A DNA stretch of 64,000 nucleotides from Shouchella rhizosphaerae (GTDB lineage: Bacteria > Bacillota > Bacilli > Bacillales > Bacillaceae_D): the NCBI RefSeq assembly GCF_900142675.1, contig NZ_FRBS01000004.1, forward strand, positions 350,380 to 414,379, given 5' to 3'. Positions 8,274 through 24,680 of this stretch are shown here, one piece after another. The notes beneath the pieces were generated by a model. That model saw nothing but the letters and a program-made list of their open reading frames with translations, was not told the origin of the DNA and made no database searches. The position numbers and the translations under genes were made by a program. Position 1 is the stretch's first letter, and each line of letters starts with the position of its first letter.

Positions 8274-9752
8274 TCAATGAATGACATTGCTTACTGTCGG
8301 TTGCGCCTCGTTCTTTTTTAATATTACTCTAATACAATTTTCCAACCTTAAATAATCTTGTTTCGCCGGATTGTTCACATTCAATATACAGACGACCGCT
8401 CCGTTTGCCTTTTCTTTTTTTAGCGTTACATAATCGCGGTCTGAAACAATCAAATCTGGCGTTTCCCCTGGCTCACAAAAACGCAAGTGGGGATAAACTT
8501 CTTGCACCATTTTTAAACCTATGTTTTTTCCTGCTTCGCCAAAAATGGAATACAGCTTTATTATAATGGGTTTTACTGCACCATCAAAACCCAGTACATT
8601 TCTTAATAAAAATCGATACCTATCTAACAATTCTCGTTTTCTATTTTTATCTAACCAAACCACTTGTGTGGTCAAATGATCCAGAAACGAGTCAACCAAT
8701 TGGTCAGGCTCTGTTTCAGAATGGTCGTTGCTGAAAAAAAAGGAATTACCCTTAAAATAACTGTCTGCCAAATGAATGTTAATTAAGTTAGCATATAGTG
8801 TTGTATATTCTTCGCCACTAATCGCGACTCCAAAAAAATCAATAAAACGATCCAACCATTGTATGGTATATTTGACAAAATCAGCAGAAGCGTTGGAAAA
8901 AGCATTTTGGATAAAAGAAATGGAACGTTGGTCGCCTTTTTCTAAATAAGAAAAAGAAATAAAGGCTAAGAATAAAAAAGCAATTTCATCCTCTAAATCA
9001 CGATCATTTATTTTTGTAAGTTCCTTATAAAGGGTATAGATGTCTTTCCGGAATTGTTCAAACAAAGGATGTGTTTTCACAAACACGTCAAAAAAACGAT
9101 CCCTGGCAATGGTAAACCCTTTGCGGATTCTACTTACGTTTACACCTACCCAATACAACAACGATTCCTGGCAACGCCCAAACGCCTTGTCTAATAATGA
9201 TTCTGCTTGTTTAAGACTAATCACGTCAAATGGCCATTCTTCTGCCCAGTTGGAATCCCAGTAAAAAAGATAGTAAAAATAACGAATTTGTTTTTCGTCT
9301 CCATGAATAATGGGCTCCCTTTTTAATTGAATGTCCAAATCAAACGTATTTAAAAGCGGCACTAATCTTTTAAGAGAACGATAAAGGGATCCATAACTGA
9401 CATATGCTTCATTTGAAAACTTAACGCTATTGACAAACTGACCCTTGAATACAGTATCTAAAAACTGGTAAGGCAACGAGTTTTGGTTATACAGCCGTTC
9501 GATTGTTTTAACGGAAAACGCAAACGAGCGTTCCAACCAATAGCCTTTTGTTTTTTCTGAGCGAACGATTTTGGCTTGGTCTGTTAAGGTTTCTAGTTCC
9601 ATAGCCAACTCATGTACATTTTTCTTCGCTGTTCGTTTTTCAATACCGCATATTTCTGCTATCTGTGTAAGTGAGACACTTTGACTTTGGGCCTCCAAAA
9701 ACCTTAGGATTCGTACTTTAGAAACTGCACTCCCATTCAAAAAGTAATCCAA
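8274..9752 (-). CDS. Mga-type (virulence-regulator family) transcriptional regulator
   Basis: A 492-residue protein with two N-terminal helix-turn-helix units: VSLTQIAEICGIEKRTAKKNV around residue 25, and FSNEAYVSYGSLYRSLKRLVPLLN around residue 110. A long helical PRD-like centre and a C-terminal EIIB-like domain follow. This layout is that of Mga/AtxA-like regulators, which respond to carbon state and often control surface proteins. An ATG at 9779 has no ribosome site, while the TTG at 9752 is 6 bases after AGAGGTG, so TTG is preferred. It is the gene immediately downstream of the sortase/poly(Asp-Ala) operon on the same strand, which suggests that it controls that locus; this is inferred. 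Confidence 0.72.
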   Translation of the reverse strand: MDYFLNGSAVSKVRILRFLEAQSQSVSLTQIAEICGIEKRTAKKNVHELAMELETLTDQAKIVRSEKTKGYWLERSFAFSVKTIERLYNQNSLPYQFLDTVFKGQFVNSVKFSNEAYVSYGSLYRSLKRLVPLLNTFDLDIQLKREPIIHGDEKQIRYFYYLFYWDSNWAEEWPFDVISLKQAESLLDKAFGRCQESLLYWVGVNVSRIRKGFTIARDRFFDVFVKTHPLFEQFRKDIYTLYKELTKINDRDLEDEIAFLFLAFISFSYLEKGDQRSISFIQNAFSNASADFVKYTIQWLDRFIDFFGVAISGEEYTTLYANLINIHLADSYFKGNSFFFSNDHSETEPDQLVDSFLDHLTTQVVWLDKNRKRELLDRYRFLLRNVLGFDGAVKPIIIKLYSIFGEAGKNIGLKMVQEVYPHLRFCEPGETPDLIVSDRDYVTLKKEKANGAVVCILNVNNPAKQDYLRLENCIRVILKKNEAQPTVSNVIH

Positions 9753-10044
9753 GCCATTCACCTCTTCTCTTGCTTCCATAAATTAAATTGTTCTATTCGT
9801 TCTCTGTATTTATTTATATCTATGCTACTGTTGGGGAGACGCTCATTGCCTATTCTATATGTCATTTACAATGTATTCTCCTTACGAAAAACGCCACATA
9901 GACCTTTGAAATTCAGGTTTGAGAGGTGCATTGGCAAGAAGCATGCCCTATGGTGACATGCTTATACAGTATGTTCGCTTCTGCTAAAAGCAAAAAGCCA
10001 ATACTTTTGCCTCGTTCACTTTAAGGGTAAAAACGATGCTCTGT

Positions 10045-10635
10045 TTAAGTTGTAGGATACGCATAAATAACAAATCGCTCAGGAGCGCTCCCTACATAAT
10101 GAAAAGGATAACAAGTTGTTATGACTAACACTTCCTCCCCCATTTTCCGAATGACAGAAGTATCATCTGCGGAAACAATTTCAGTTTCTTTTAGCTCATA
10201 CGTAAATTTGCCATAGGGCATCGTTACAATAAAAGAGTCGCCTATTTCTAGCTCGCCAAAATTACGAAATACAGTGTCTCTATGGCCAGATAACAAAATC
10301 TGTTCATTTTGCCCAGGAAAAGCAGATTCGGATAAATGACCGACCCCATTTTTTAAAGCCTCTTCATTGGTCCCTTCAACAACAGCGATTGTCCGATCTA
10401 GCTTTGGAATCTCTAATGTTGCAAAGGCTTCGTGAGCGTCTGGACGAAAGGTTTCGACAGCGCCATCGTCTTCGTCTCCTCCGGCACGTATCCATTCACG
10501 TTCGGCTTTTTCTATATACGCTTTCGCTTCTACCAGTGATTTGTCTTGAGCGCGTTCATGAGCCATTAGTTGATAAACAAATGCCCCCAAAACAATTAGA
10601 CCTGTTATGATTAGCAAATTTCCAATTCGTTTCAT
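10045..10635 (-). CDS. Class D sortase
   Basis: A 196-residue membrane-anchored transpeptidase. One N-terminal membrane segment (residues 5-22) is followed by a short linker and the sortase barrel. Catalytic residues are visible: His118 in LLSGHRD, Cys175 in VITTCYPF and Arg187 in APERFV. The TLEIPKL entry strand and TTC with an aromatic residue soon after are typical of class D (YhcS/SrtC-like) enzymes, which prefer LPNTA-type rather than LPXTG signals. The adjacent surface protein ends in LPDTA, matching this preference. The ribosome site GAGAGG is 8 bases before the ATG, and the gene starts 13 bases after the stop of the preceding gene. An AAGCATG/CATGCTT hairpin lies downstream at 9939-9963. 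Confidence 0.9.
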   Translation of the reverse strand: MKRIGNLLIITGLIVLGAFVYQLMAHERAQDKSLVEAKAYIEKAEREWIRAGGDEDDGAVETFRPDAHEAFATLEIPKLDRTIAVVEGTNEEALKNGVGHLSESAFPGQNEQILLSGHRDTVFRNFGELEIGDSFIVTMPYGKFTYELKETEIVSADDTSVIRKMGEEVLVITTCYPFHYVGSAPERFVIYAYPTT

Positions 10636-10648
10636 ATCGCGGTCCTCT

Positions 10649-12319
10649 CTATTTAAACAATCGTGATTCAGCCCTCATGTGCACATAATAGCGACAGTAG
10701 CCAGATAAGTAATGTTCTACATCATCAATACGGCTTCGAAATGAATGGTGGCGAATAAAAAAGCTACCAAGAATTCTAGAAGGGTTTTTATAATACATAG
10801 CCAATTCTGGATAAAAATATCCATTTCGTTGATATTCTGCGCGTTTGTGAATGGTGTCTTGAAGTTTTTTTTCATCGAATTCTGCTAAAAGGGTTCGATG
10901 CTCTGTTTCTTTCATACGCTGAATCATATTGTAAGCTGCCAATGTCAATTCTAAAAAAGTCGGGTATGTGGTGATGCGATGATAGATAAAATCTAGTTTA
11001 GCTTGAACATTTTGTAGGCCAAAATGAAAGTACTTTCGCAATGGCTTATATCGTGTCAATTCCTCTGTACAATAACTAAGCCAGTGATCATGGTCTTTCC
11101 AATATTCGTTAGCAATAAAGTAATCAAACGCTCTTTCAACCGTCTTCATCCATTTTTCATTTTTGTCTAATTGATAAAGCCTTAGCAAAGCAAAAGCAGC
11201 TTCTCCATCATAATAAACAATTCTAAACGCATCTTTTAATTCGAAAGATGGATAATGGAGCACATGGTGAAAGCCGCCATTTTCTTGTTGAAGCTGACAT
11301 ATCCCATTTGCCAACTGTTGGGCAACCGGAAGGTAACGATCATTTTGGAAAACGTCCGTATACTTTGTAAAAGCAAGAATGGCGGCTGCATTCGCTCCTA
11401 ATTTAACTTCCAACTGATCTTGTTCAACACCGTCGACAACATAGGCAGTCCCTTGCTTCTTATCAACATGTAGCCCCTTTAGCAAATAATCAAGGCCTCT
11501 TTCAATTGCCGGAATGGCTTCTTTATCCTGAGTGATTTCTAGCGCTTCGATCATTGCATAAAGTGTACTGGCATGTCTCAACAAATTATAAAAATGAATT
11601 TCTTTATCAAAACAAGAAAAATACCCATATGTAAATTGGCCTGCCGCTTTATTCATTTTAGCCAAATAATTAAGTCCACTAGCAATCATTTCTTTTACTT
11701 CCCCAGCGTCTAAAGCGGTATCCCGTCTTCCGTTGTCTCTTGGCCCTTCTTTAAGGGTATAAAGCTGCTGGTTTTCCAAAAAGTAACCTTTTGTTGTAAA
11801 TGTGGTTACCGCCGAAACTTTGTTGAAATCTAATCGTTTTAAATGAGGGCGATGGTTCCGTATATAAGATTGAATGTTTTTTTCGTTTAAATACCCTCGC
11901 TTTGTATCTTTGTCAATTTGAATCATTGCGTTTCCATTGATCTCTTGCTCTAAAAAAGCATGGCTAAAGTTTTCATCAAAACTGATGCCTTGCCTAAAGT
12001 AGTTCTTTTTTGTTTTGGTCATAATATTAATAAATGACAAAAGCGAGTGTTGTTCAGTACTAGTAACCCAGTCAACTTTTAGACAGGAATATTCCTGCTT
12101 CATGAGGGAAACCCCTCTGTTGTAAAGGCGTTTCCAAGCGCGCTGAAAACTATTCTCCTTGACGGTTAAGACCGTTGCTCGTTTATCTAAATAGCCAATA
12201 GAAAGAAACAAGATAACCGGCTTTTCTTTTCGTAGTTCCTTGTACCCCCCTGACTCGGTCATAAATGCATGCAGTTGATCCATATCACGGTTAAATATTT
12301 GGGTAAGTTTCTGGTTCAT
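10649..12319 (-). CDS. Uncharacterised protein with a helical alpha/alpha-toroid-like C-terminal region, sortase locus
   Basis: I do not recognise a named family. The 556-residue protein has no signal peptide or membrane segment, so it is predicted to be cytosolic. Residues 1-200 look like a separate mixed domain (PVILFLSIGYLDKRATVL, FLEQEINGNAMI). From about 215 onward, repeated amphipathic helix pairs are seen: SGLNYLAKM, LLRHASTLYAMIEAL, AIERGLDYLLKGL, VAQQLANGICQLQQENGG, TVERAFDYFIANEYW. This is the style of six-hairpin toroid enzymes (glycoside hydrolases, epimerases, terpenoid-cyclase-like folds). It is flanked at 13 bases by the sortase and at 70 bases by the poly(Asp-Ala) surface protein, so it may modify that protein or its wall acceptor. 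The AGGAGG ribosome site is 7 bases before the ATG. Confidence 0.6.
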   Translation of the reverse strand: MNQKLTQIFNRDMDQLHAFMTESGGYKELRKEKPVILFLSIGYLDKRATVLTVKENSFQRAWKRLYNRGVSLMKQEYSCLKVDWVTSTEQHSLLSFINIMTKTKKNYFRQGISFDENFSHAFLEQEINGNAMIQIDKDTKRGYLNEKNIQSYIRNHRPHLKRLDFNKVSAVTTFTTKGYFLENQQLYTLKEGPRDNGRRDTALDAGEVKEMIASGLNYLAKMNKAAGQFTYGYFSCFDKEIHFYNLLRHASTLYAMIEALEITQDKEAIPAIERGLDYLLKGLHVDKKQGTAYVVDGVEQDQLEVKLGANAAAILAFTKYTDVFQNDRYLPVAQQLANGICQLQQENGGFHHVLHYPSFELKDAFRIVYYDGEAAFALLRLYQLDKNEKWMKTVERAFDYFIANEYWKDHDHWLSYCTEELTRYKPLRKYFHFGLQNVQAKLDFIYHRITTYPTFLELTLAAYNMIQRMKETEHRTLLAEFDEKKLQDTIHKRAEYQRNGYFYPELAMYYKNPSRILGSFFIRHHSFRSRIDDVEHYLSGYCRYYVHMRAESRLFK

Positions 12320-12345: not shown

Positions 12346-12376
12346 GGAAGCAAATGCTAATAGCGCATTTGCTTCC
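12346..12376 (-). terminator. Hairpin between the surface-protein gene and the downstream operon genes
   Basis: GGAAGCAAATGC (12346-12357) pairs perfectly with GCATTTGCTTCC (12365-12376) across a 7-base loop. On the minus strand it is followed only by CTTTAAC, so termination is probably partial. It would give abundant surface-protein mRNA and less mRNA for the toroid-like protein and sortase. Confidence 0.65.
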
Positions 12377-12389
12377 TTATTTAACACTT

Positions 12390-15053
12390 CTATTTCTTTC
12401 TTCTAAATAGACGAGCACTTATTCCAGCTAATAGTGCTGCCATTCCCGTAACTCCTACAGTCCAAATGGAAGTTGCTGTATCTGGGAGCTTCTTCCCATC
12501 TTTCGAAGAGTCTTGCTTACCAGTATAGTCTCGATCGACTCGATTTTTATCAGTAACCCTGTCCTTATCGGTATCCGCATCGGCATCGGCATCCGCGTCC
12601 GCGTCGGCATCGGCATCTGCGTCCGCGTCAGCATCCGCATCGGCGTCTGCGTCGGCATCCGCATCCGCGTCGGCGTCCGCATCAGCGTCCGCGTCGGCAT
12701 CCGCGTCGGCGTCCGCATCCGCATCGGCGTCCGCATCAGCGTCCGCATCCGCATCCGCATCCGCATCGGCGTCAGCATCCGCATCGGCGTCCGCATCCGC
12801 ATCGGCATCCGCGTCAGCATCAGCGTCCGCGTCGGCGTCGGCATCGGCATCGGCATCCGCGTCCGCATCCGCATCCGCATCGGCGTCCGCGTCGGCATCG
12901 GCATCGGCGTCCGCATCAGCGTCCGCATCGGCATCCGCGTCAGCGTCGGCATCGGCGTCCGCATCCGCATCAGCGTCAGCGTCGGCATCGGCATCGGCGT
13001 CCGCATCCGCGTCGGCATCAGCGTCCGCGTCGGCATCGGCATCGGCGTCAGCATCAGCGTCGGCATCAGCGTCCGCGTCAGCATCCGCATCGGCGTCCGC
13101 GTCTGCGTCGGCATCCGCATCCGCATCCGCATCGGCGTCAGCGTCGGCATCAGCGTCAGCATCCGCGTCGGCGTCCGCATCCGCATCGGCATCGGCGTCA
13201 GCGTCAGCGTCCGCATCGGCGTCCGCATCCGCATCCGCATCGGCGTCAGCGTCCGCATCCGCATCGGCATCAGCATCGGCGTCCGCATCAGCGTCCGCAT
13301 CCGCATCAGCGTCGGCATCCGCATCAGCGTCAGCGTCGGCATCGGCATCGGCGTCAGCATCCGCATCGGCGTCCGCATCAGCGTCCGCATCCGCATCAGC
13401 GTCCGCATCCGCATCAGCGTCAGCGTCCGCATCGGCGTCAGCGTCCGCATCCGCATCGGCGTCAGCGTCGGCATCCGCATCAGCGTCAGCGTCGGCATCG
13501 GCATCAGCGTCCGCATCAGCGTCGGCATCGGCGTCAGCGTCCGCATCCGCATCGGCGTCAGCGTCTGCGTCGGCATCCGCATCCGCATCCGCGTCGGCGT
13601 CCGCATCAGCGTCCGCATCGGCATCAGCGTCCGCGTCGGCATCGGCGTCAGCGTCGGCATCCGCATCAGCGTCAGCGTCGGCATCGGCATCGGCGTCAGC
13701 ATCCGCGTCGGCGTCCGCATCCGCGTCGGCATCGGCATCAGCGTCGGCATCGGCATCAGCGTCCGCATCGGCGTCAGCGTCCGCATCCGCATCGGCGTCA
13801 GCGTCGGCATCGGCATCAGCGTCCGCATCGGCGTCAGCGTCGGCATCCGCATCGGCGTCAGCATCGGCGTCCGCATCCGCGTCGGCGTCAGCATCCGCGT
13901 CCGCATCAGCGTCAGCGTCGGCATCCGCATCGGCATCAGCGTCCGCGTCGGCATCGGCATCGGCGTCAGCATCGGCATCGGCATCACTGTCGTCATCAAA
14001 TATTACTGTATCATAATCACCAATGCTGCTTAGCAGTTGAAGGTCAATTGTACTATCGTGTACACCTGCGCCATAAATTGGGACTTCTCCAGATGCGTCG
14101 GTGCCATCCACTTTTGTGTTTAGTGTAACTTCTGTCCTTCCAAGCAATTGCACGCCAGCCAAGTCATTGGATAGATCAACGGCCCCACTGGAAATATTAT
14201 CAATTAGACCTAAAAGCGGTTGTACAAGTGCTTGAAGAGGCTCTAGAGGAACAGAAATACCGCCGCCCAAAATGTCAATGCTGACATTGCCAATCGCATC
14301 TACTACGTCATTCAGTAATTGAACCACCACATCTTGAACCGCTGATTCAAGGTGGTTTCCTAAGCCATCTGAAAAATTAACAAGAATTGAACCGTCTGGC
14401 TGGACGACTGCTTCTACTTCATCATTATAAGCAAGCAGATCAGCCAGCGCCCCATCTATATTATTAAGCGCACTTAGAGCATCTTGTAATTCTGTTAATC
14501 CACTTACACGAATTAAAGGCGCCGTAATTGGATTATTTACAATCCGGTCAACTGCAGCAACCAAGTCATTAACTGTAGTGTTCAATTGCTGCGTGATATC
14601 CCCTATTAAATTGCCTACAGTTGGCAAAGCATCCATTGTAACTGGAAGGATTTCTACCCTGACTTGCGCTGGCCCTTCTACGGTCCACTTATCAGCAAGG
14701 TCAGGAGAATAAAAGATAACCGTACGCTCTGGACCGAAGAGCTCAGCATCAGCAAGGCCTCGCCCAGTTAAAGAAAGCCCAAGATCATAAAGCCCATTTT
14801 CATCAGCATCACCAAGTTGAGCATTGACTGCAACATCCGTCAATAATTGAAACTCTGTTAGACTAGCTGCCGAAGCGTAGGCACTTGGGTTCGTCAATAC
14901 ATTTCCAGATACGCCTTCAGCATTAAGATTGCTAAAAGGCACTATTGTTAGAGTTGTAATCGCCGTAGAAGCGACCACTTTTGAAAGAGTGTTCATTTTT
15001 CTTTTTTGCCTATTTTTCATCTTTTTCTTGTAATCGTACTTTTTCGAAGACAA
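12390..15053 (-). CDS. Cell-wall-anchored surface protein with a poly(Asp-Ala) tract and LPDTA motif
   Basis: An 887-residue surface protein. Layout: a long basic signal peptide (residues 1-45, hydrophobic VVASTAITTLTIVPF, probable cut after LNA); an N-terminal domain at about 46-350, rich in hydrophobic and acidic residues, with no recognised family; FDDDS; then residues 357-827 as an unbroken Asp-Ala alternation (about 235 dipeptides, net charge near -236); a short basic and Ser-rich linker; and a sorting signal with LPDTA, a hydrophobic helix (WTVGVTGMAALLAGISARLF) and an RRKK tail. The architecture parallels staphylococcal Sdr/Clf proteins, with DA in place of SD. The start is a TTG about 9 bases after AGAGGAAG. 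LPDTA fits the neighbouring class D sortase. The role may be adhesion, a wall-spanning stalk, cation binding, or surface acidity in an alkaliphile; these are inferred. Confidence 0.9.
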   Translation of the reverse strand: MSSKKYDYKKKMKNRQKRKMNTLSKVVASTAITTLTIVPFSNLNAEGVSGNVLTNPSAYASAASLTEFQLLTDVAVNAQLGDADENGLYDLGLSLTGRGLADAELFGPERTVIFYSPDLADKWTVEGPAQVRVEILPVTMDALPTVGNLIGDITQQLNTTVNDLVAAVDRIVNNPITAPLIRVSGLTELQDALSALNNIDGALADLLAYNDEVEAVVQPDGSILVNFSDGLGNHLESAVQDVVVQLLNDVVDAIGNVSIDILGGGISVPLEPLQALVQPLLGLIDNISSGAVDLSNDLAGVQLLGRTEVTLNTKVDGTDASGEVPIYGAGVHDSTIDLQLLSSIGDYDTVIFDDDSDADADADADADADADADADADADADADADADADADADADADADADADADADADADADADADADADADADADADADADADADADADADADADADADADADADADADADADADADADADADADADADADADADADADADADADADADADADADADADADADADADADADADADADADADADADADADADADADADADADADADADADADADADADADADADADADADADADADADADADADADADADADADADADADADADADADADADADADADADADADADADADADADADADADADADADADADADADADADADADADADADADADADADADADADADADADADADADADADADADADADADADADADADADADADADADADADADADADADADADADADADADADADADADADADADADADADADADADADADADADADADADADADADADADADADADADADADADADTDKDRVTDKNRVDRDYTGKQDSSKDGKKLPDTATSIWTVGVTGMAALLAGISARLFRRKK
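12573..13985 (-). repeat. Asp-Ala coding hexanucleotide repeat (about 235 units)
   Basis: 1413 bases in which every unit on the minus strand is GAY GCN. Third positions vary freely (GAT/GAC; GCA, GCC, GCG, rarely GCT), so the DNA is not a pure microsatellite although the peptide is invariant. Higher-order copies are visible: the 56-base block 13309-13364 recurs identically at 13651-13706, and its first 41 bases recur at 13465-13505. Offsets are 156 and 186 bases, both multiples of 6. Expansion by recombination between blocks is inferred. Confidence 0.95.
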
Positions 15054-16405: not shown

Positions 16406-17254
16406 CTATACGCCTTTCAACCACTCATCGACTTTATCTTGGTTGGCATTCACCCATTTTTCCGCTGCTTCTTCTGGCTCCATTCCGTCTTTTGCCATAT
16501 ACAACATGACTTCATTCATATCGTCTGCTGTCCAGTAAAATTGGTCGAGAATCCGATACGCTTCTGGCTTTTCTTCGTCCAAGCCTGCGCGGACAATTGT
16601 GCGGATTTCTCCGTTTGCTTCATAGATGCCTTTGCTGTCCTCAAGAAATTTTAAATCATACGAATTAAACTTCCAGTGAGGTTGCCAAGCGGTAATGACA
16701 ATTGGTTCTTGCGCTGCATAGCGGTTGCCAAGCTCTGCCGTCATAATCGCATCTGAACTTGCTGACAACGTAACGTCATCAATTCCATATTCACGAAGCG
16801 CCTCTTCCGTTGTCATCATTACGCCTGCGCCAGCGTCAATGCCTGTGATGGTACTGACGACGTCAGCCGACAATTCTTCGATGCTGTCAATCTCCATATA
16901 CGCTGGGACAGCTAAGCCAGTTTGTGCCCCTTCCAAATTAGCTCCTAAATCGATAATGTCATCTTTATGCTGTTCATAGTGGACTTTCATATCTTCTGGC
17001 AGCCATCCGGCAACATGGGCATCGGCGCTTCCGTCTGCCACTGACGACCACATGATTCCTTGCTCAACACTTGTTAACGTCACATCATAACCGGCTTGTT
17101 CCAAAGCAATCTTCACTACATGGTTTGAAGCGATTTCAGAATCCCATACAACGTAAACGAGTTCAATTTCTTTGGCTTCTTCCCCTTGGGCGCCACAGGC
17201 CGACATCATAGGCAAAGCCAATAGCAAAAACGCAAGCAAGCGAATGGTTTTCAT
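16406..17254 (-). CDS. Glycine betaine/proline-type ABC substrate-binding lipoprotein (OpuAC-like), orphan
   Basis: A 282-residue secreted lipoprotein: an N-terminal hydrophobic stretch with lipobox MSAC at about residues 17-20, then the OpuAC-type domain. It starts LVYVVWDSEIASNHVVKIALEQAGYDV; VADGSADAHVAGWLPE and ITAWQPHWKFNSYDLKFLED give the Trp/aromatic box typical of quaternary-ammonium binders. No ATPase or permease gene adjoins it, so it must use a transporter encoded elsewhere. It is divergent from gbsR, and an inverted repeat similar to the one before gbsA lies in its promoter. It may bind glycine betaine or choline; which one cannot be read from the sequence. Confidence 0.85.
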   Translation of the reverse strand: MKTIRLLAFLLLALPMMSACGAQGEEAKEIELVYVVWDSEIASNHVVKIALEQAGYDVTLTSVEQGIMWSSVADGSADAHVAGWLPEDMKVHYEQHKDDIIDLGANLEGAQTGLAVPAYMEIDSIEELSADVVSTITGIDAGAGVMMTTEEALREYGIDDVTLSASSDAIMTAELGNRYAAQEPIVITAWQPHWKFNSYDLKFLEDSKGIYEANGEIRTIVRAGLDEEKPEAYRILDQFYWTADDMNEVMLYMAKDGMEPEEAAEKWVNANQDKVDEWLKGV

Positions 17255-17283
17255 TACCGATCATCCTCTCAATTATGTATAAT

Positions 17284-17343
17284 ATATTTAAAACGAATTA
17301 AATATTTTAGACACTATACTAACATAGCCTCTCGTTCTGTCAA
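17284..17343 (-). promoter_or_regulatory. Promoter and candidate GbsR operator of the binding-protein gene
   Basis: Minus strand: -35 TTGACA (17338-17343), with -10 TATAGT (17313-17318) at 19 bases or TAGTAT (17316-17321) at 16. Just downstream, ATATTTAA (17284-17291) and TTAAATAT (17298-17305) form an inverted repeat around AACGAA. The stretch TAAAACG..T.AA.TAT resembles the gbsA upstream palindrome region, suggesting a shared regulator. Confidence 0.55.
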
Positions 17344-17441
17344 CATCCAACAGAACCGCCAGTCTTTCGCTACCTTGCTTTATTACAGGTAAACAGCTAT
17401 ACTATCGCTAAATTTCGTTAAATTGCAATTGAGGTGTTGAA

Positions 17442-18008
17442 ATGGAAAAGGATGAACATGTTTTTGAAAAATTAGAGCAAGCGCACGCTATCATTAAAGA
17501 CGGCATAGCCGATACGATGGACATTTATGGGGTAAACCGTTCAGTCGGGCAACTTTATGCGACTTTGTATTTAAACGACGGGCCAATGACGCTCGATGAC
17601 CTTCGCGATGAATTAGGAATGAGTAAAGGCAGTATGAGTATTGGTGTACGCAAACTTCTAGAAGAAAAAATTATCCACCGCGTGTACCGAAAAGGCGAGC
17701 GTAAAGACTTGTATGAGGCTGAAAAAGACTTCTTTCAATTTTTTATTTCCTTTTTTACGCGAAGATGGGAACGGGAACGTAGCGTGAACCTTCAGGCAGT
17801 TAAACAAGCCATTCCTCTGTATGAAGCATTAGTGGATGATGCTGAGACGCCAGATGAGGTACGGGCGGAAGCCGCACACACATTAAAAAAAATAACGGCT
17901 TCTCTTGAATATTATGAGTTTCTTGGTTTGCTAGTAGAACAGTTCCAAACTGGAAATCTTGCCAAAGATCTAGTAGAACGCTATAAAAACGAAAACGGCA
18001 CCTCCTAA
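17442..18008 (+). CDS. gbsR: GbsR-type regulator of glycine betaine synthesis/uptake
   Basis: A 188-residue MarR-like winged-helix protein. It has the GbsR pattern GVNRSVGQLYATLYLNDGPMTLDDLRDELGMSKGSMSIGVRKLLEEKIIHRVYRKGERKDLYEAEKDFFQFFISFFTRRWERE. GbsR proteins sense choline and repress betaine synthesis and choline uptake genes. The position directly before gbsA-gbsB and divergent from an OpuAC-type gene fits this. The ATG follows TTGAGGTGTTGAA. A strong terminator at 18054-18108 separates it from gbsA, so gbsAB uses its own promoter. Confidence 0.92.
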   Translation: MEKDEHVFEKLEQAHAIIKDGIADTMDIYGVNRSVGQLYATLYLNDGPMTLDDLRDELGMSKGSMSIGVRKLLEEKIIHRVYRKGERKDLYEAEKDFFQFFISFFTRRWERERSVNLQAVKQAIPLYEALVDDAETPDEVRAEAAHTLKKITASLEYYEFLGLLVEQFQTGNLAKDLVERYKNENGTS

Positions 18009-18053
18009 CAAAGAACTTAGCTGCTACAACCATATCAAGTTTTCGTTAAAGAA

Positions 18054-18108
18054 CCTCCTAAAATAGTATCCTTACAATGGGCATCACTATTTTAGGAGGC
18101 TTTTTTTT
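18054..18108 (+). terminator. Strong terminator of gbsR
   Basis: CCTCCTAAAATAGT (18054-18067) pairs perfectly with ACTATTTTAGGAGG (18086-18099) and is followed by eight T residues (18101-18108). The T run also begins the -35 of the next promoter. Confidence 0.9.
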
Positions 18109-18168
18109 GACACAAACAAACAGAAATGCTATGTTTATTTTGTATAAAACGTTTAATATATATTAAAC
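18107..18168 (+). promoter_or_regulatory. gbsAB promoter with perfect palindromic operator
   Basis: -35 TTGACA (18107-18112), 17 bases, -10 TATGTT (18130-18135). Downstream lies the perfect 18-base palindrome GTTTAATATATATTAAAC (18151-18168), seven bases ahead of the ribosome site. The position suits a GbsR roadblock-type operator; the binding protein is inferred from the neighbouring gene. Confidence 0.75.
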
Positions 18169-18188
18169 AAAATAAAGGAGAGAGGTTG

Positions 18189-19664
18189 ATGATTCGCGGA
18201 AAGATGTTTATTAACGGGGAATGGACGGAGGCAAAGAATGGCCGCGTTCGAGAAATTATTAATCCTTTTAACCAGGAAGTGATCGCAACAGTGCCAGAAG
18301 GTTCGGCTGAAGACAGCCAAGCTGCGATTGCAGCCGCCCGAGCTGCCTTTGATGAAGGCGTTTGGTCCTCTGCATCCGCAAGTGAACGAGGTGAACGGGT
18401 GCGTCTAATTGGCCAAAAAATAGCCAATCAAAACGAGGAATTTGCCCGTTTGGAGTCGCTTGATACAGGTAAAACGCTTGAAGAAAGCCGAACAGATATG
18501 GAAGACATCGCCAATGTGTTTTTTTATTTTGCTGGTCTGGCGGACAAAAATGAGGGCGAGGTCATTCGGAGCCCGCTTCCGAACTCAACAAGCATCGTTG
18601 TCCGTGAACCTGTAGGCGTGTGCGGGCTAATTACGCCTTGGAATTATCCGTTGTTGCAAGCAGCATGGAAATTGGCGCCTGCACTCGTTGCCGGAAATAC
18701 CCTTATTTTAAAGCCAAGCGAACTTACACCTCTTACGACGATGAAGCTATTTGAGCTGTTTGAAGAAGTCGGGCTTCCAACAGGAGTGGCCAATCTTGTG
18801 CTTGGCACAGGCAAGGAAGTTGGCGCACCGCTTGCCGAAAGTACAGATGTCGACTTGATCTCATTTACTGGAGGCATTGAAACAGGCAAGACCATCATGC
18901 AAGCGGCAAGCAGTAACGTTAAAAAAATGGCTTTAGAACTTGGCGGCAAAAACCCTAATATCGTCTTTGCTGATGCCGATTTTGAGACAGCCATTGACCA
19001 AGCCTTAAACGCTGTCTTTTTCCATGCTGGCCAGGTTTGTTCAGCTGGCTCGCGCTTGCTTGTGGAAGAAGCGATTCATGATGATTTCGTAGAAGAGTTA
19101 GTAAAGCGGACGAAACGTATCAAGCTTGGCAATGGTTTTGATGAAAAAACAGAGTCTGGGCCGCTTATCTCGGCCGCCCACCGCGCCAAAGTTGAAAGCT
19201 ACATTCAAATCGGATTAGATGAAGGCGCTACACTTGCTTGTGGCGGGAAACGCCCAGATGCGGCAGAACTGCAAAACGGCTTTTTTCTAGAACCGACTAT
19301 TTTTACGAACTGCCGCAGCAGCATGCGCATCGTCCAAGAAGAAGTGTTTGGTCCTGTACTTACAGTCGAAACATTCAGAACAACAGAAGAAGCGATCGCA
19401 AAGGCAAATGACACCATCTATGGGCTTGCTGGCGCTATTTTTTCCAATGATATTGGCAAAGCAGAACGCATTGCAAGCAAACTTCGTTTAGGAACGGTAT
19501 GGATCAATGACTTTCACCCATACTTTGTCCAAGCACCTTGGGGAGGTTACAAACAATCTGGCTTCGGGCGGGAATTAGGCAAAATCGGCTTAGAAGAGTA
19601 CACGGAAACAAAGCATATTTTCCGCAATAAGCAACCGCAACCAATCGGCTGGTTCCGCGGGTAA
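18189..19664 (+). CDS. gbsA: Betaine aldehyde dehydrogenase
   Basis: A 491-residue NAD(P)-dependent aldehyde dehydrogenase. Seen in order: VREPVGVCGLITPWNYPL, NTLILKPSELTPLTTMKLFEL, cofactor loop SFTGGIETGK, catalytic Glu in MALELGGKNPN, catalytic Cys in HAGQVCSAGSR, and EEVFGPVLTV. It oxidises glycine betaine aldehyde to the osmoprotectant glycine betaine. The ATG at 18189 is 8 bases after AAAGGAG; an upstream in-frame start at 18126 lies inside the promoter and is rejected. It is followed 22 bases later by gbsB. Confidence 0.95.
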   Translation: MIRGKMFINGEWTEAKNGRVREIINPFNQEVIATVPEGSAEDSQAAIAAARAAFDEGVWSSASASERGERVRLIGQKIANQNEEFARLESLDTGKTLEESRTDMEDIANVFFYFAGLADKNEGEVIRSPLPNSTSIVVREPVGVCGLITPWNYPLLQAAWKLAPALVAGNTLILKPSELTPLTTMKLFELFEEVGLPTGVANLVLGTGKEVGAPLAESTDVDLISFTGGIETGKTIMQAASSNVKKMALELGGKNPNIVFADADFETAIDQALNAVFFHAGQVCSAGSRLLVEEAIHDDFVEELVKRTKRIKLGNGFDEKTESGPLISAAHRAKVESYIQIGLDEGATLACGGKRPDAAELQNGFFLEPTIFTNCRSSMRIVQEEVFGPVLTVETFRTTEEAIAKANDTIYGLAGAIFSNDIGKAERIASKLRLGTVWINDFHPYFVQAPWGGYKQSGFGRELGKIGLEEYTETKHIFRNKQPQPIGWFRG

Positions 19665-19686
19665 AATGAATTGAGGAGCGATAAAC

Positions 19687-20895
19687 ATGAGCATGCATAT
19701 GAAAATTGAATCGATGTTAAACTACCATACTTTTGAAGTGCCGACCGCTATTAAGCATGGCATTGGCGCTATCTCCCACCTTGGCGAAGAAGTCCGCGCC
19801 CTTGGTTCCAAAAAAATATTGCTTGTGACGGACCCTGGCATTTACAACGCAGGCATTACAAGACCAGTCGAACAAAGCCTCGAGAAAGCGGGCATTGACG
19901 TCGTCCTTTTCAACGAAGTTGAGCCCAATCCACCAACACGATTAATCGCCAAAGGTTCCAGCGTTTATGCGGAACATCGCTGCGACGGCTTAGTGGCTGT
20001 CGGCGGCGGCTCTTCTATGGATACAGCTAAAGCAATTGGCGTGGAAGTGACACACGAAGGCACAGTCCTTGATTACGAAGCAGCAGAGGGCAAGAAGCCG
20101 CTTAAACGGCGAATTCCACCATTGGCAACTGTTCCAACCACTGCCGGAACAGGTTCGGAAGTGACGCAATGGGCAGTCATTACGGATGAACAACGGAAAT
20201 ACAAATTCAATACAGGCGGCCCTCTTATTGCTGCACACGTAACCATTATTGATCCACAATTGCATACTTCAATGCCTCCTCATGTCACAGCGATGACAGG
20301 CATTGATGCCATAGCCCATGCCATTGAGTGCTACACGATGAAATATGCACAACCGGTTACAGATGCTGTCGCCTTGTTGGCAATTGAATATGCAGCCACC
20401 TACATACGCCGCGCTTTTGCAGACGGGGATGACCTAGAAGCACGCTATGGGATGGCGCAAGCTGCAATGTTGGCGGGGCTTTCCTATGGAAGCGAATCGG
20501 CTGGGGCCGCCCACGCAATGAGCCAGTCCCTTGGCGGCATCGTCCCTGTAGCTCATGGACAATGTGTGGCAGCGATGATGGGACCGGTCATGGAATTCAA
20601 CTGGAAAGGAGCGCCTGAACGTTTTGCCCGCATTGCCCAAGCATTCGGCCTAAACACAACGGCTATGACAACCAATGAGGCGGCCAAGGCAGCAGTCCGC
20701 TATATGTATGAGTTAGTTGAAGAGCTGGAAATCCCATCGCTTGAAGACCAAGGTGTTGACAAAACACAAATTAGCCGTTGGGCCGAAGAAGCGTTGAAAG
20801 ATCCACAAACCATCGGAAATCCTCGTGACTTGACGCTTGCTGATTATGAATGGATTTACAAACGCTGCTTTAACCTCGTACCAAGCACCCTTTAA
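19687..20895 (+). CDS. gbsB: Choline dehydrogenase, iron-containing alcohol dehydrogenase type
   Basis: A 402-residue type III alcohol dehydrogenase, the same length as B. subtilis GbsB. It has the GGGSSMDTAKAIG nucleotide-binding motif, the metal-binding set in GIDAIAHAIECYTM, and the conserved SLGGIVPVAHGQCVAAM with a further His ligand. It oxidises choline to betaine aldehyde, which GbsA completes. The ribosome site GAGGAG lies 8 bases before the ATG. It forms an operon with gbsA and ends at a GC-rich terminator. Confidence 0.95.
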   Translation: MSMHMKIESMLNYHTFEVPTAIKHGIGAISHLGEEVRALGSKKILLVTDPGIYNAGITRPVEQSLEKAGIDVVLFNEVEPNPPTRLIAKGSSVYAEHRCDGLVAVGGGSSMDTAKAIGVEVTHEGTVLDYEAAEGKKPLKRRIPPLATVPTTAGTGSEVTQWAVITDEQRKYKFNTGGPLIAAHVTIIDPQLHTSMPPHVTAMTGIDAIAHAIECYTMKYAQPVTDAVALLAIEYAATYIRRAFADGDDLEARYGMAQAAMLAGLSYGSESAGAAHAMSQSLGGIVPVAHGQCVAAMMGPVMEFNWKGAPERFARIAQAFGLNTTAMTTNEAAKAAVRYMYELVEELEIPSLEDQGVDKTQISRWAEEALKDPQTIGNPRDLTLADYEWIYKRCFNLVPSTL

Positions 20896-20905
20896 ACAAA
20901 ACGAA

Positions 20906-20933
20906 GAGCAAGCCGCTTTTGCGCGGCTTGCTC
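20906..20933. terminator. Bidirectional terminator between gbsB and lutR
   Basis: GAGCAAGCCGC (20906-20916) pairs perfectly with GCGGCTTGCTC (20923-20933). The T tract is modest on both strands (minus side TTCGTTTTGTTT), and the two genes converge here. Confidence 0.82.
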
Positions 20934-20936
20934 AAT

Positions 20937-21671
20937 TTACTGGCTGTCGTCCTCTTGTTTTTGCTTATCATATTCCATTAATGCTTGTTCGACATTGACT
21001 AAATGAACCATCATCGCCTGGTGGGCTTTGTCTTTGTCTTGCGCTTCCACCGCCTTATAAATTTGCTCATGCTCATCATGAAGCTGTTTAAGCGTTTGTG
21101 TTTCGGCGTAAAGGCTGATTTTTCGGCTTTCATACATGGTCATCACGAGCGTGTCAGACAACTTTTGCATCATTTCCATCAGCAAATCGTTTTCTGTCGC
21201 CTCGGCCAAAGCGAGATGAAATCGAACATCGGCCTCCTCGCCTAAATCCTTGCCAGCTTCTGCCTTGGCCATTTGCGAAAGCGCCTCTTCGATCTTGGCA
21301 AGATGGTCAGCGCTGCGGTTTTCAGCCGCCAAACTCGCGACGCCGACTTCGAGGATTTTTCGCACTTGGAATAAATCCTGTTTCTCTTTATTCGACAAAA
21401 CGCCCTTGATTCCGACTGGTTTGACCATACTTGAAAAATCGAATTTATTAACAAATGTGCCTTCTCCTTGGCGGATCGTCACAAGCCCGACTGCACGCAA
21501 TGCGCTCAATGCTTCCCTAACGGCTGATCGACTTACTTGAAATGTCGCCGACAGCTTTTCAACTGAATCGAGTTTTTCCCCTGGTTGAATATCGCCACTC
21601 CGAATCATGTCCTCGAGTTGGTCGCGGATTAGTTCGGACACTTTTTTAGACTTTACTTGTTTTAAGGACAT
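20937..21671 (-). CDS. lutR: FadR/GntR-family regulator of lactate utilisation
   Basis: A 244-residue regulator. It has an N-terminal winged helix (VSELIRDQLEDMIRSGDIQPGEKLDS, then FQVSRSAVREALSALRAVGLVTIRQGEGTFV) and a C-terminal FadR-type all-helical FCD domain with metal-site residues (DVRFHLALAEATEN, ... HLVNVEQAL). It closely resembles LutR of bacilli. The start at 21671 is chosen over 21794 because GAGGTG lies 6 bases before it. It sits downstream of lutC, separated by a terminator, so it is transcribed on its own. A TCATCNGATGA-type site before lutP fits its role. Confidence 0.88.
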   Translation of the reverse strand: MSLKQVKSKKVSELIRDQLEDMIRSGDIQPGEKLDSVEKLSATFQVSRSAVREALSALRAVGLVTIRQGEGTFVNKFDFSSMVKPVGIKGVLSNKEKQDLFQVRKILEVGVASLAAENRSADHLAKIEEALSQMAKAEAGKDLGEEADVRFHLALAEATENDLLMEMMQKLSDTLVMTMYESRKISLYAETQTLKQLHDEHEQIYKAVEAQDKDKAHQAMMVHLVNVEQALMEYDKQKQEDDSQ

Positions 21672-21796
21672 AGCAAACACCTCATTTGCAACTTCTCGTT
21701 TTAAGTATAGCATATGCAAACGAGCAACATCCTTTTGCTGACTAGTAAAAAGCATCTGCAGTATCCTTCTTCTACCTGAAGCAACATTTAACAACT

Positions 21797-21822
21797 AAAA
21801 GGCCAGCGGTAACGCGCTGGCC
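21797..21822 (-). terminator. Terminator of the lutPABC operon
   Basis: GGCCAGCG (21801-21808) and CGCTGGCC (21815-21822) form the stem; on the minus strand TTTTAGTTGTT follows. Confidence 0.8.
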
Positions 21823-21833
21823 TTGGGTGTTTT

Positions 21834-22523
21834 TTACTTGTCGTCGACTACTATATAGCACGCTTTTAGCGGGCCGTGCACGCCAACTACTAAACTCATT
21901 TCAATATCCGCACTGTTGCTTGGCCCTGAAATAAAATTGATGCATGATGGGAGGCGTCCTTCGCCTGTTAGTTGCCGAATGTGGCGCGCCGCTTGCGTCA
22001 TCCGCGCTACTAGCGTGCTTTTCGGGATGATCGCGATATAATAGCGCGGCAACAAACTGACAGAACGCCCTTTGCCATTGCTGCTAAACAATGTCACTGT
22101 TCCCGACTCAGCAAGAGTGATATCGGAAAAGGTAATGCCTACGTCTGCTATTTCTGCCTGCTCAATCGAACGTTTGCTGTCACGATTGTCCCATAATGAA
22201 ACAGAGGGGCGCGTCAAAAAGGAGCCGAGGCCAAACTCATGAAAACGACGGTCATCCCAAGCAATGACCGATTTCGCTCCATACATGTCGATTGTTTCAT
22301 CAAGTGCCGTCTCTAACTGACCGCTCTCCACTTGTTTAAAGTCTGTATGAATCGCCACGCATTGTTCTTTCAGCACTGTGACCAACTCATCTTTTGAAGC
22401 GTCTTTTAATACTTCAAATTGAGGGGAAACTCGATAATTGGGCCGTAACACCCCTTCTGTTTGGCGGGGCCGGCCAAGTTGATTGGCCACATGATCGAGA
22501 AAAGAATCGCGGTTTTTAATCAT
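21834..22523 (-). CDS. lutC: Lactate utilisation protein C
   Basis: A 229-residue LUD-domain protein with [46 protein letters not shown] and a C-terminal [35 protein letters not shown]. LutC works with LutA and LutB in oxidation of L-lactate to pyruvate. The start at 22523 follows AAGGAGGGGGCGC and overlaps the end of lutB by 8 bases; the longer frame to 22598 lies inside lutB and is not used. Confidence 0.95.
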
Positions 22524-23952
22524 GCGCCCCCTCCTTTTGCCGTGCTTTAAACCAATCACGGAACCGTTCTTTGGCCGGAGCTGGCAAATGGCGGACATCT
22601 GTCCAACCTTTTAGCGGCCCTGGCCCTTTTGGAATTGCGCCATCCTTTACAAACGGGAACAGCAAAAATGGCACTACTTTGGTTCCAGCCTTATACAACA
22701 TAGGCGAACTTGCACCAATTCCAAACCCTTTCATCGCCAACGCCTCCGTTCGCGCAGTCCGCTTTTGTTCGGCGATAACGCGACGATGCTTAATCAACAG
22801 TTCGTGAAGGGGAATTTTGACAGGGCACGCATCCGTGCAAGCCGCACATAAGCTTGACGCGTAAGGCAACTCTTTGTGGTCTTCATACCCTTCCAACAAC
22901 GGTGTTAATACTGCCCCAATCGGCCCTGGATAAATCGAGCCGTAGGAATGACCGCCGACGTGGCGGTACACAGGGCAGACATTGATGCAAGCTGCGCAGC
23001 GGATGCAATGAAGCGCTGCTTGGAATTCAGTGCCGAGAATATTGGAGCGCCCATTATCGACAATGACGAGGTGAAACTCTTCAGGACCATCGGCATCGCC
23101 ATCTTCACGAGGACCTGTGAGGCCTGTCACATAACTCGTTAATTTTTGGCCGACTGCACTTCGGCAAAGCATGCTAACTAAAATGTCAAGTTCTTCCCAT
23201 GTCGGCACAATCCGTTCCATCCCCATAACGGCAATATGTGTTTTAGGCAGTGCGGTCGCGAGGCGGGCATTTCCCTCATTCGTGACCAACGAAATGCTTC
23301 CTGATTCTGCTACGGCAAAATTGCAGCCTGTAATGCCCACATCTGCTGACAAAAACTCTTTGCGGAGCTGTTCACGAGCAAACAACGTCAGCTCTTGGGG
23401 ATTCTCTGACTTTGTATAACCTTTGCGGGCTTTAAACGTATCACGGATCTGTTCTTTATTTTTGTGCAATGCTGGCGCGACGATATGGGAAGGGGGATCA
23501 TGGTCGTCTATTTGTAAAATGTACTCCCCCAGGTCGGTTTCAATGACTTCGCAGCCAATGTCTTCGAGCGCTTTGTTCATGCTAATTTCTTCGGTTACCA
23601 TCGATTTGGATTTGACGACTTTTTGCGCTTCTTTGCTGCTTACAATTTCCTTGATATACTGATTCGCTTCTTCAGCCGTTTGCGCAAAATAAACATGTCC
23701 TCCCGCCTTCTCAACGTTTTCGCTAAGCTGGTGCAAATAAAAATCAATATGATTGAGCGTGTGTGAGCGGATTTCTTCTGCGAGTGTGCGCCACTCCTCC
23801 CAATTGCCAAGCTCCTTTTCCGCTGAACCTTTTGATGTTTTCAGCCGTTCCTGGGCCGAGCTGACCGCTTGGCGCATAAAACCGTCTTGGAGCCCTTTTT
23901 CAACCCGTTTTGAAAAAGGGGCATCGCTTATTTTAATGGCCACATTCCTCAC
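22516..23952 (-). CDS. lutB: Lactate utilisation iron-sulfur protein B
   Basis: A 478-residue protein with an N-terminal LUD domain ([42 protein letters not shown]) and a C-terminal ferredoxin-like part binding two 4Fe-4S clusters through [12 protein letters not shown] and CAACTDACP. It is the electron-transfer subunit of the LutABC lactate oxidation complex. It overlaps lutA by 4 bases and lutC by 8, so the genes are translationally coupled. Confidence 0.96.
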
Positions 23953-24668
23953 TCCTTGCTATTTAAGACTTGGGCAATATGCTTTACTTCAATCGTTTTG
24001 CCGTTTCGTTCGATCCGCCCGCCAATGTTCATCAAACAACCGCAATCGGCGCCAATAAGCAGGTCAGCACCTGTCGCTTCGATATGGCCGACTTTTTCTT
24101 CCACCATTTGTTCCGAAATTGCAGGCATTTTGACTGAAAATGTACCGCCAAAGCCACAGCACGACTCCTTGTTTGCCAGTGGAGCCAGCTCAAGGCCCTT
24201 TACTTGTTCCAACAAAGAAAAGGGTGCCTCTGTTTCCCTTAATAACCGCGACATATGGCAAGAGGTATGGTATGTCGCTTTTTTATGGCAAACTGCGCCA
24301 ATGTCTTCGACTTTTAGGACGCGGACAAGGAATTGGGTCAGTTCATACGTTTTGCTTGCAAGCTCTTCTGCTCGTTTTTCCCACTCAGGATCGTCTGCAA
24401 ATAGTTCCTTGTATTCGAGGAGCATAGCAGCGCAGGACCCTGACGGCAGCACAACATAATCGGCATCGGCAAACGTTTCAATGGTATGTTTGGCTGCTTT
24501 TTTCGTATCTTCATGATAACCGCTGTTAAATGCCGGTTGCCCGCAGCAAATCTGGTTTTCTGGAAATTTGACGTTACACCCATGGCGTTCAAGCACTTCT
24601 ACAGTGTCTTTCCCAACACCTGGATAAAAAATGTCCGCTAGACATGTGACGAATAGCGAAACGTTCAC
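23949..24668 (-). CDS. lutA: Lactate utilisation protein A (CCG-domain)
   Basis: A 239-residue protein with two cysteine-rich CCG motifs, [12 protein letters not shown] near residue 41 and [14 protein letters not shown] near residue 168, like the CCG subunits of heterodisulfide reductase and glycolate oxidase. It belongs to the LutABC complex. It starts with GTG, 8 bases after AAGGGG, and is separated by 12 bases from the lutP stop. Confidence 0.95.
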
Positions 24669-24680
24669 ATTACCATCCCC

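Follow-up and report, generated by a model that had tools for sequence, protein, structure and literature searches.

Proteins of the staphylococcal Sdr, Clf and Pls type carry an Asp-X stalk near their wall anchor, and the genes that modify the stalk (for SdgA and SdgB, or GtfC and GtfD) adjoin the adhesin gene. In the excerpted text of one report, GtfC is a protein of 538 amino acids (aa) encoded directly downstream of pls, the gene with the Ser-Asp repeats. CAZy does not recognise it as a glycosyltransferase, and its name comes from similarity to poly(glycerol-phosphate) alpha-glucosyltransferases. Fully glycosylated Pls results when it acts with GtfD, which CAZy does list as a glycosyltransferase (PMC5230774). 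Stalks of Asp and Ala are also on record. In excerpts of two other reports, Lmo1799 of Listeria monocytogenes has 226 Ala-Asp repeats predicted to span the wall (PMC8687577), and the BAPs of Acinetobacter have Ser-Asp tracts, one of them with 148 Ala-Asp pairs (PMC4647330). The glycosylation of Ser-Asp stalks has thus been studied; Asp-Ala stalks, which are unable to carry a Ser-linked sugar, are read as spacers in the excerpted literature. Here we describe an Asp-Ala stalk protein of Shouchella rhizosphaerae, encoded at positions 12390..15053 (minus strand) of a 64,000-nucleotide (nt) stretch of contig NZ_FRBS01000004.1, which we call the window, and the two genes that follow it.

We found that the gene directly downstream of the stalk gene encodes an uncharacterised protein with a predicted alpha/alpha-toroid fold (P0002), and that its homologues accompany Asp-X stalks in many other bacteria. 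The new element is this partner gene, not the stalk. With moderate confidence, we favour the reading that the locus encodes a fibrillar-adhesin-like wall protein on an Asp-Ala stalk, together with a toroid partner that acts in maturation of the stalk. The protein itself is most probably an adhesin whose stalk crosses the wall, and this predicted architecture is firm. The toroid, for its part, most probably works on the stalk while this is still in the cytoplasm.

The adhesin gene has a TTG start and encodes 887 aa; its homologues have the same architecture. By eye, the N-terminus is lysine-rich and is followed by a hydrophobic signal sequence. A DYKKKM motif (residues 7-12; 15018..15035, minus strand) lies N-terminal to that signal. 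The pAdhesive_17 domain comes next (Pfam PF20609; residues 63-352; 13998..14867, minus strand), with an E value of 1.4e-73 and 248.3 bits against a cut-off of 27. Residues 357-827 (12573..13985, minus strand) are an (Asp-Ala)235-Asp tract of 471 residues, that is, 235 Asp-Ala (DA) pairs and a final Asp with zero exceptions. The 236 Asp residues give the tract a charge of -236, and the net charge of residues 46-857 is -273. A single Ser lies just outside the tract and none lies inside. The protein ends in a sorting signal (residues 856-887; 12393..12488, minus strand) made up of LPDTA (residues 856-860), a hydrophobic stretch and an RRKK tail. The anchor motif reads LPDTATS; despite this, the match to the LPxTATN signal model NF058670 (E 3.7e-4, 20.8 bits) is under the cut-off of 32. 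An earlier first-pass annotation of the sequence had reported the alternating tract with its charge, an N-terminal extracellular domain, an LPDTA wall-sorting signal and a contrast with staphylococcal Ser-Asp stalks. Its coordinates and counts are exact, and the domain match, the sorting signal and the absence of Ser from the tract bear out the rest. A stalk was among the roles it proposed, and we also find this role the likeliest.

Domain, repetitive stalk and surface anchor are all present as expected of a pAdhesive_17 protein, and on these sequence features we assign it to that group. Pfam describes the domain as putatively adhesive. PF20609 was the only family found in a Pfam scan of the protein, which showed no Ig-like ligand-binding domains of the Sdr/Clf type. 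We rejected membership in the Sdr/Clf group, as the NCBIfam matches fell mainly on the low-complexity tract and far under cut-off, and the repeat is Asp-Ala and not Ser-Asp. No solved structure stood out for the head by sequence (best E 0.31), and a model of the head with a mean predicted local distance difference test (pLDDT) score of 69.7 matched nothing in a fold comparison. Like fibrillar adhesins and Periscope proteins, the window protein has a head on a repetitive stalk of variable length. Their stalks consist of folded domains, whereas the stalk here is a dipeptide polymer. Periscope proteins are defined by length variation of tandem, nearly identical folded repeats. The stalk of the window protein varies in length, but its repeat is a dipeptide, and we did not place it among them.

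The toroid gene (10649..12319, minus strand; 556 aa) has an AGGAGG sequence before its ATG. A gene for a class D sortase of 196 aa (10045..10635, minus strand; NF058671 sortase_SrtD, 226.5 bits against a cut-off of 140) starts 13 nt after the toroid gene on the same strand. Both genes had been missed by the first-pass annotation, and they say more about function than the charge of the stalk does. Between the adhesin stop codon and the toroid gene is a 12-nt perfect inverted repeat with a 7-nt loop (12346..12376). It is absent from our listing of terminator-like sequences and is a possible processing or attenuation hairpin. A second sortase is encoded elsewhere in the genome (L002; G000:C8:168074-168619) with 64% identity to the window sortase, which makes it a candidate second enzyme of class D.

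In the mechanism we propose, a long and highly charged Asp-Ala stalk that crosses the wall would keep the pAdhesive_17 head at a distance from the cell, where the head would bind a target. The co-encoded class D sortase would fix the adhesin to the wall. The toroid, as a cytoplasmic protein, would belong to a system for stalk maturation and, as its recognising or modifying subunit, would act on the Asp-X stalk ahead of export. We propose this role because of the adjacency of the genes, the fusions of the toroid to enzymes, and the published behaviour of GtfC.

We found that the toroid gene is associated with Asp-X stalks at most of the loci compared. The head-family set consisted of 19 fetched stretches (loci and genomes are given by our L and G numbers). 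A homologue of P0002 lies beside the DA/pAdhesive_17 gene in all 14 complete loci, and there is none at L045, L046 or L047, which lack a DA tract. In the genomes of L037 and L038, where the adhesin gene is cut by a contig end, toroid genes lie close to the end of a different contig. A toroid profile search of 398 Bacilli genomes matched 36: 28 with a long match, 2 with fragments and 6 with weak partial matches, which we took as unrelated toroids. The gene occurs in 10 of the 11 Bacilli genomes with PF20609 over cut-off, compared with long matches in 28/398 overall. Among 30 loci drawn by the toroid profile alone, 23 have a run of at least six Asp-Ala or Asp-Ser (D[AS]) pairs within 1.5 kb. Such a run is lacking there at L054 (where the adhesin lies on the other side of the toroid gene, as at L044), L060, L070, L074, L075 and two fragments.

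We then counted longer tracts over 46 toroid copies from 45 fetched loci, with the window and the 14 head-family loci included; these copies are not independent. For 38 of the 46, the fetched region has a gene in which 10 or more D[AS] pairs follow one another without a break. In 33 of these 38 the tract gene is adjacent to the toroid gene on the same strand, upstream of it in 32 and downstream at L044. The other five are Gram-negative loci, with intervening genes or the adhesin on the opposite strand. Adjacent genes carried such a tract in 29 of 84 called cases, non-adjacent genes in 6 of 322. As a control we took 30 LPXTG-anchor loci, with only the best locus of any one genome. Of these, 28 had no tract, and 27 of those 28 had no toroid gene; the exceptional locus, L124, is identical with L090. 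One of the two control loci that do have a tract also had a toroid gene. Toroid fragments of about 97 matching residues at L096 and L097 (genomes G364 and G284; genus taken as Staphylococcus) look like remnants. In the open-access literature that we searched, there was no paper linking this toroid family to Asp-Ala stalks.

These counts bear on the possibility that the tract is a plain spacer, a disordered, protease-resistant, wall-spanning stalk whose neighbouring genes are present for unrelated reasons. The excerpted reports read the Lmo1799 repeat as wall-spanning (PMC8687577) and the Acinetobacter repeats likewise (PMC4647330), and tract length varies freely. In contrast, toroid genes accompany D[AS] stalks in different phyla and with different routes of secretion, and the toroid gene is missing from nearly all of the tractless LPXTG loci. 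We consider a plain spacer unlikely.

P0002 is predicted, from family alignment and a structural model, to be an alpha/alpha toroid. The protein matched no Pfam or NCBIfam family over cut-off and, by eye, has no signal sequence. Foldseek comparison of the model gave GH76 mannanases and cellobiose 2-epimerases as best matches (E from 2e-5). The family profile also matches cellobiose 2-epimerase (E 2e-5), and one of 14 toroid members matches Glyco_hydro_76 (4.2e-4). An alignment of 47 rows, in which the window's copy appears twice, has 19 invariant and 50 nearly invariant columns that are well filled. The invariant residues include H249, E505, R528, R530 and D532, a pattern of Arg, His, Glu and Asp that looks enzyme-like. 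In the family tree, whose long branches make the deeper joins unsafe, DA stalks occur across most of the family and the Ser-containing ones mostly in Staphylococcus.

Many plasmid records annotate toroid members as poly(glycerol-phosphate) alpha-glucosyltransferase. Most of the members we scanned have no glycosyltransferase domain; in Pfam there was none at E 1 in P0002 or in the 14 members. We found no support in the Pfam and NCBIfam scans for P0002 as a glycosyltransferase. At one Staphylococcus haemolyticus locus, L100, a 538-aa homologue of P0002 with the poly(glycerol-phosphate) alpha-glucosyltransferase name is directly downstream of a gene named pls. The toroid genes of the window operon and of L100 thus lie where gtfC does, directly downstream of an Asp-X repeat LPXTG gene. 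At L083 a convergent gene for a 505-aa glycosyltransferase lies behind the P0002 copy.

Some toroids are fused to enzymes. In Klebsiella (L103) the toroid is joined to a GT4 glycosyltransferase, with long Ser-Asp runs upstream; this member may hint at the origin of the glucosyltransferase name. In Agrobacterium (L098) and Sulfitobacter (L104), both with DA adhesins, the fusion partner is a Mur-type ligase, and in Nitratireductor (L101) a Mur-type ligase is encoded by the gene next to the toroid. Another Agrobacterium locus with a DA adhesin (L106) has the toroid fused to ATP-grasp domains of the YheC/D, GSH-synthetase and RimK types. Five DA loci of family f31 have an ATP-grasp gene just after the sortase, confirmed by Pfam in three. 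A Mur ligase is encoded in 6 of the 15 staphylococcal regions L081-L095, in all six with a P-loop in one reading frame. By annotation, plasmid loci L100, L145 and L146 also have a Mur ligase, although the match of the L100 copy is confined to the second half of Mur_ligase_M. The fusions, read from sequence, favour a docking or modifying role for the toroid.

Mur-type and ATP-grasp ligases form amide bonds on carboxylates, and Asp is the sole reactive side chain in a DA tract. On Ser-Asp stalks, the paired enzyme would be a glycosyltransferase acting on Ser. On Asp-Ala stalks, Asp carboxylates would be the likeliest modified site, because the stalk has no hydroxyl and some relatives have ATP-dependent carboxylate-amine ligases as partners; this part of the proposal is the weaker one. 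Cyanophycin synthetase and poly-gamma-glutamate ligase are Mur-type or ATP-grasp ligases that act on acidic polypeptides. They serve as an analogy for the proposed chemistry, with the difference that no such ligase was found in the scanned region around the window operon. Extended to all these loci, the proposal would be a modular, phylum-crossing system that decorates Asp-X stalks before export: the toroid binds the stalk and its partner sets the chemistry, a glycosyltransferase on Ser or Mur-type and ATP-grasp ligases amidating Asp, to give cyanophycin-like amidated stalks. We put this forward tentatively, as possible but not probable.

Several observations weigh against a toroid that acts in stalk maturation. 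In the excerpts of the Pls report, GtfC without GtfD gave zero sugar signal, and some glycosylation, though weak, was obtained with GtfD of strain COL in the absence of GtfC (PMC5230774). GtfC itself (SACOL0051) is a likely member of the toroid family by position, length and name. The P0002 model, built from four sequences, is of modest quality (mean pLDDT 58.9), with better values across much of residues 205-490. A Pfam scan of the listed open reading frames (ORFs) of at least 180 aa at window positions 1-26468, two ORFs that shadow the tract being left out, showed no glycosyltransferase or carboxylate-amine ligase near the operon. The GtfC-style pairing with a glycosyltransferase acting on Ser is not seen here, there being no such domain in the scanned region and no Ser in the tract. 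Eight of the 46 toroid copies have no tract nearby: two at L078 (contig end) and one each at L079 (beside an Ig-domain LPXTG protein), L080 (contig end), L082 (adhesin in pieces, with a 7-pair remnant), L090 (no tract), L102 (Acinetobacter; Ig-like adhesin) and L107 (Variovorax; none seen).

The partner enzymes also do not divide by a strict rule. We tallied them within 6 kb where flanks allowed, over loci that are not independent. Homologues of the glycosyltransferase queries were found at 5/15 Ser-containing loci and 1/24 DA loci (p 0.02), a weak enrichment; the one DA locus is L087, with the glycosyltransferase 2.4 kb away. Ligases were found at 12/24 DA loci and 6/15 Ser-containing loci (p 0.74), with no association overall, and neither ligase class was in reach at 12 of the 24 DA loci. 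The staphylococcal Mur ligase and ATP-grasp queries matched nothing in the window's genome, in a search that had no positive control. A PF08245 search found six Mur-type ligases there, a number that fits housekeeping, and with just these six we rejected a dedicated stalk ligase elsewhere in the genome.

Some of these results suit an alternative in which the toroid is an export chaperone. It would bind the highly acidic stalk in the cytoplasm and keep it soluble and accessible while modifying nothing, and partner enzymes would use it merely as a docking platform. Such a protein would serve Ser-Asp and Asp-Ala stalks alike, including the DA loci with no ligase in reach. It would also fit the excerpted findings that GtfC alone gave no sugar signal and that GtfD of strain 1061, which gave none alone, works only with GtfC (PMC5230774). 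A common N-terminal motif ahead of the signal sequence points the same way. A motif of the DYKKKM form is present in 15 of 16 non-staphylococcal Gram-positive adhesins in which a DA tract was seen (the pattern was drawn by eye and the compared rows are related). The sole exception is L032, where the adhesin frame differs before the signal sequence. The motif is also present at L037 and L038, both cut at contig ends, and is not present at L045 and L046, which have no DA tract. In contrast, the enzyme-like conservation of Arg, His, Glu and Asp over the 47 rows, the fold shared with glycosidases and epimerases, and the fusion of the toroid to three different enzyme classes weigh against a pure chaperone. 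We regard the chaperone as a genuine possibility, though a less than probable one, and retain a toroid acting in stalk maturation as the preferred reading.

The stalk is less unusual than the first-pass annotation had supposed. A homologue of the N-terminal part of the adhesin is present in 7 of 13 same-genus genomes, the window's included, and all seven have a DA tract. PF20609 was found in 13 of the 398 Bacilli genomes, over cut-off in 11. Complete head-family genes of families f20, f31 and f51 carry DA tracts of 92-553 residues per tract, and L042 has an unbroken DA run of 546 residues, longer than the window's 471. L046 and L047 match PF20609 only under cut-off, and at L037 and L038 no tract was seen in the remaining part of the gene. 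The named records with a head-family gene are Shouchella clausii, Shouchella tritolerans and Salinicoccus carnicancri; a plasmid search for pAdhesive_17 homologues found none at E 1e-5. Outside the head-family set we found DA stalks in Listeria (L099), Staphylococcus, Agrobacterium (L098, L106), Nitratireductor (L101) and Sulfitobacter (L104), and an Enterococcus protein (L105) has a short, mostly DA stalk of 22 DA and 3 Asp-Ser pairs. A D[AS] tract could be measured at 39 of the toroid-gene loci; Ser makes up less than 10% in 24 of them, 14 of which had been fetched because of the head domain.

One close system is that of Listeria. Lmo1799 shares with the window protein a pure Ala-Asp stalk and a wall anchor. 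At Listeria locus L099, which we take to be lmo1799/lmo1798, the stalk consists of 143 DA pairs, the N-terminal motif reads DYKRRL, and the adhesin gene is followed directly by a toroid homologue. Unlike the window, L099 has no homologue of the window sortase, and its anchor is LPSTG. The window differs from the staphylococcal Sdr, Clf and Pls systems in that its tract has no Ser to take a sugar, no glycosyltransferase was found near the operon in the scanned region, and the head is pAdhesive_17 in place of the fibrinogen-binding domains of Sdr proteins. The Acinetobacter beta-type BAPs and the alphaproteobacterial BapA-type adhesins likewise have long Ser-Asp or Ala-Asp tracts, and in Agrobacterium, Nitratireductor and Sulfitobacter a toroid gene lies near the adhesin and type I secretion genes. 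They differ from the window protein in their type I secretion and in having the tract in the N-terminal half. The toroid gene that we fetched from A. baumannii adjoins an Ig-like adhesin with no tract, unlike that of the window. In the wall-anchored proteins compared the tract lies towards the C-terminus and is wall-proximal; in the four alphaproteobacterial ones it is in the N-terminal half, which in such adhesins is thought to stay near the cell. The tract would thus be the cell-proximal part in both.

The first-pass annotation had suggested that the polymer could hold protons and cations near the wall, or nucleate minerals, in an alkaliphile. The tract does have 236 negative charges, and Asp-Ala alternation would put Asp on one face of an extended chain. 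In contrast, pure or mostly DA stalks in Listeria, Enterococcus, Agrobacterium, Nitratireductor, Sulfitobacter and Staphylococcus indicate that habitat is no explanation, and Gram-positive DA stalks come with wall-anchor or adhesin architecture. Listeria, Agrobacterium, Nitratireductor, Sulfitobacter and Staphylococcus are mostly not alkaliphiles. Because of the stalks in Listeria and the alphaproteobacteria, together with the published Lmo1799 and Acinetobacter BAPs, the Asp-Ala stalk is a known kind of stalk and no mark of alkaliphiles. An ion store or mineral nucleator is very improbable.

We also considered that the tract might be an assembly error or a low-complexity expansion in a dead gene. 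Assemblies are prone to break at repeats, contigs of G184 and G285 stop at the gene for the head domain or close to the one for the toroid, and the Salinicoccus DA adhesin at L044 is in two overlapping ORFs of different frames. The tract DNA itself is a degenerate repeat with 18- and 24-nt periods and 78-80% matches (TRF). It uses seven of the eight possible 6-nt units, and its longest exactly repeated run is 9 units (54 nt), so ordinary-length reads could resolve it. The window is among the 13 complete loci, of 14, in which a single frame spans the tract. The same gene is present in a single-contig genome of the same genus (G001), where its tract runs to about 350 residues with two Ser inside. 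With relatives carrying tracts of other lengths, only short exact repeats and one reading frame, we rejected an assembly artefact, which is in essence refuted. Two ORFs over the tract, 12513-14033 (plus strand, 506 aa) and 12455-13999 (minus strand, 514 aa), are by eye low-complexity shadows and not genes.

We found that the tract changes quickly at the DNA level. The window genome and G001 are 99.9% identical over the 1053 nt of the gene that precede the tract. In contrast, their tracts have 235 and 173 units, and the longest common run is 9 units. The length differences between related strains that the first-pass annotation had proposed to look for are therefore present. From near-identical gene starts and differing tracts, it appears that the tract DNA reshuffles fast while the Asp-Ala peptide pattern is kept, and on the preferred reading stalk length would be evolutionarily tunable by this turnover. 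Codon use also sets the tract apart. GCA makes up 2% of its Ala codons, compared with 28% in nine other window coding stretches, which include the adhesin gene's own N-terminal part. At all six other loci compared, one of which has just 3 Ala outside the tract, GCA was again less frequent within the tract than over the remainder of the gene.

Next to the operon is a gene for an Mga-type regulator (8274..9779, minus strand; PF05043, E 1.8e-25). It is kept beside the operon in L030-L032, split into two ORFs in L032, and from its position is a putative and possible regulator of the operon. The other neighbours at 1-26468 are, by Pfam, transporters, regulators, dehydrogenases, lactate-utilisation genes and other unrelated genes. 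Positions 16406-26468 hold genes for a glycine betaine uptake protein (OpuAC), a MarR-like regulator and aldehyde and alcohol dehydrogenases, then lactate-utilisation genes and a lactate permease. The MarR-like regulator and the dehydrogenases look like a choline-to-betaine cluster.

If one partner family does serve both kinds of stalk, with ligase fusions in some of the DA systems, then bacteria ranging from Shouchella to alphaproteobacteria that live with plants may modify their stalks in a second way, on Asp. Modification of the stalk would be directly testable by mass spectrometry in Shouchella. The same reading would give a role to a conserved family that is now named poly(glycerol-phosphate) alpha-glucosyltransferase, Mur ligase or hypothetical protein.

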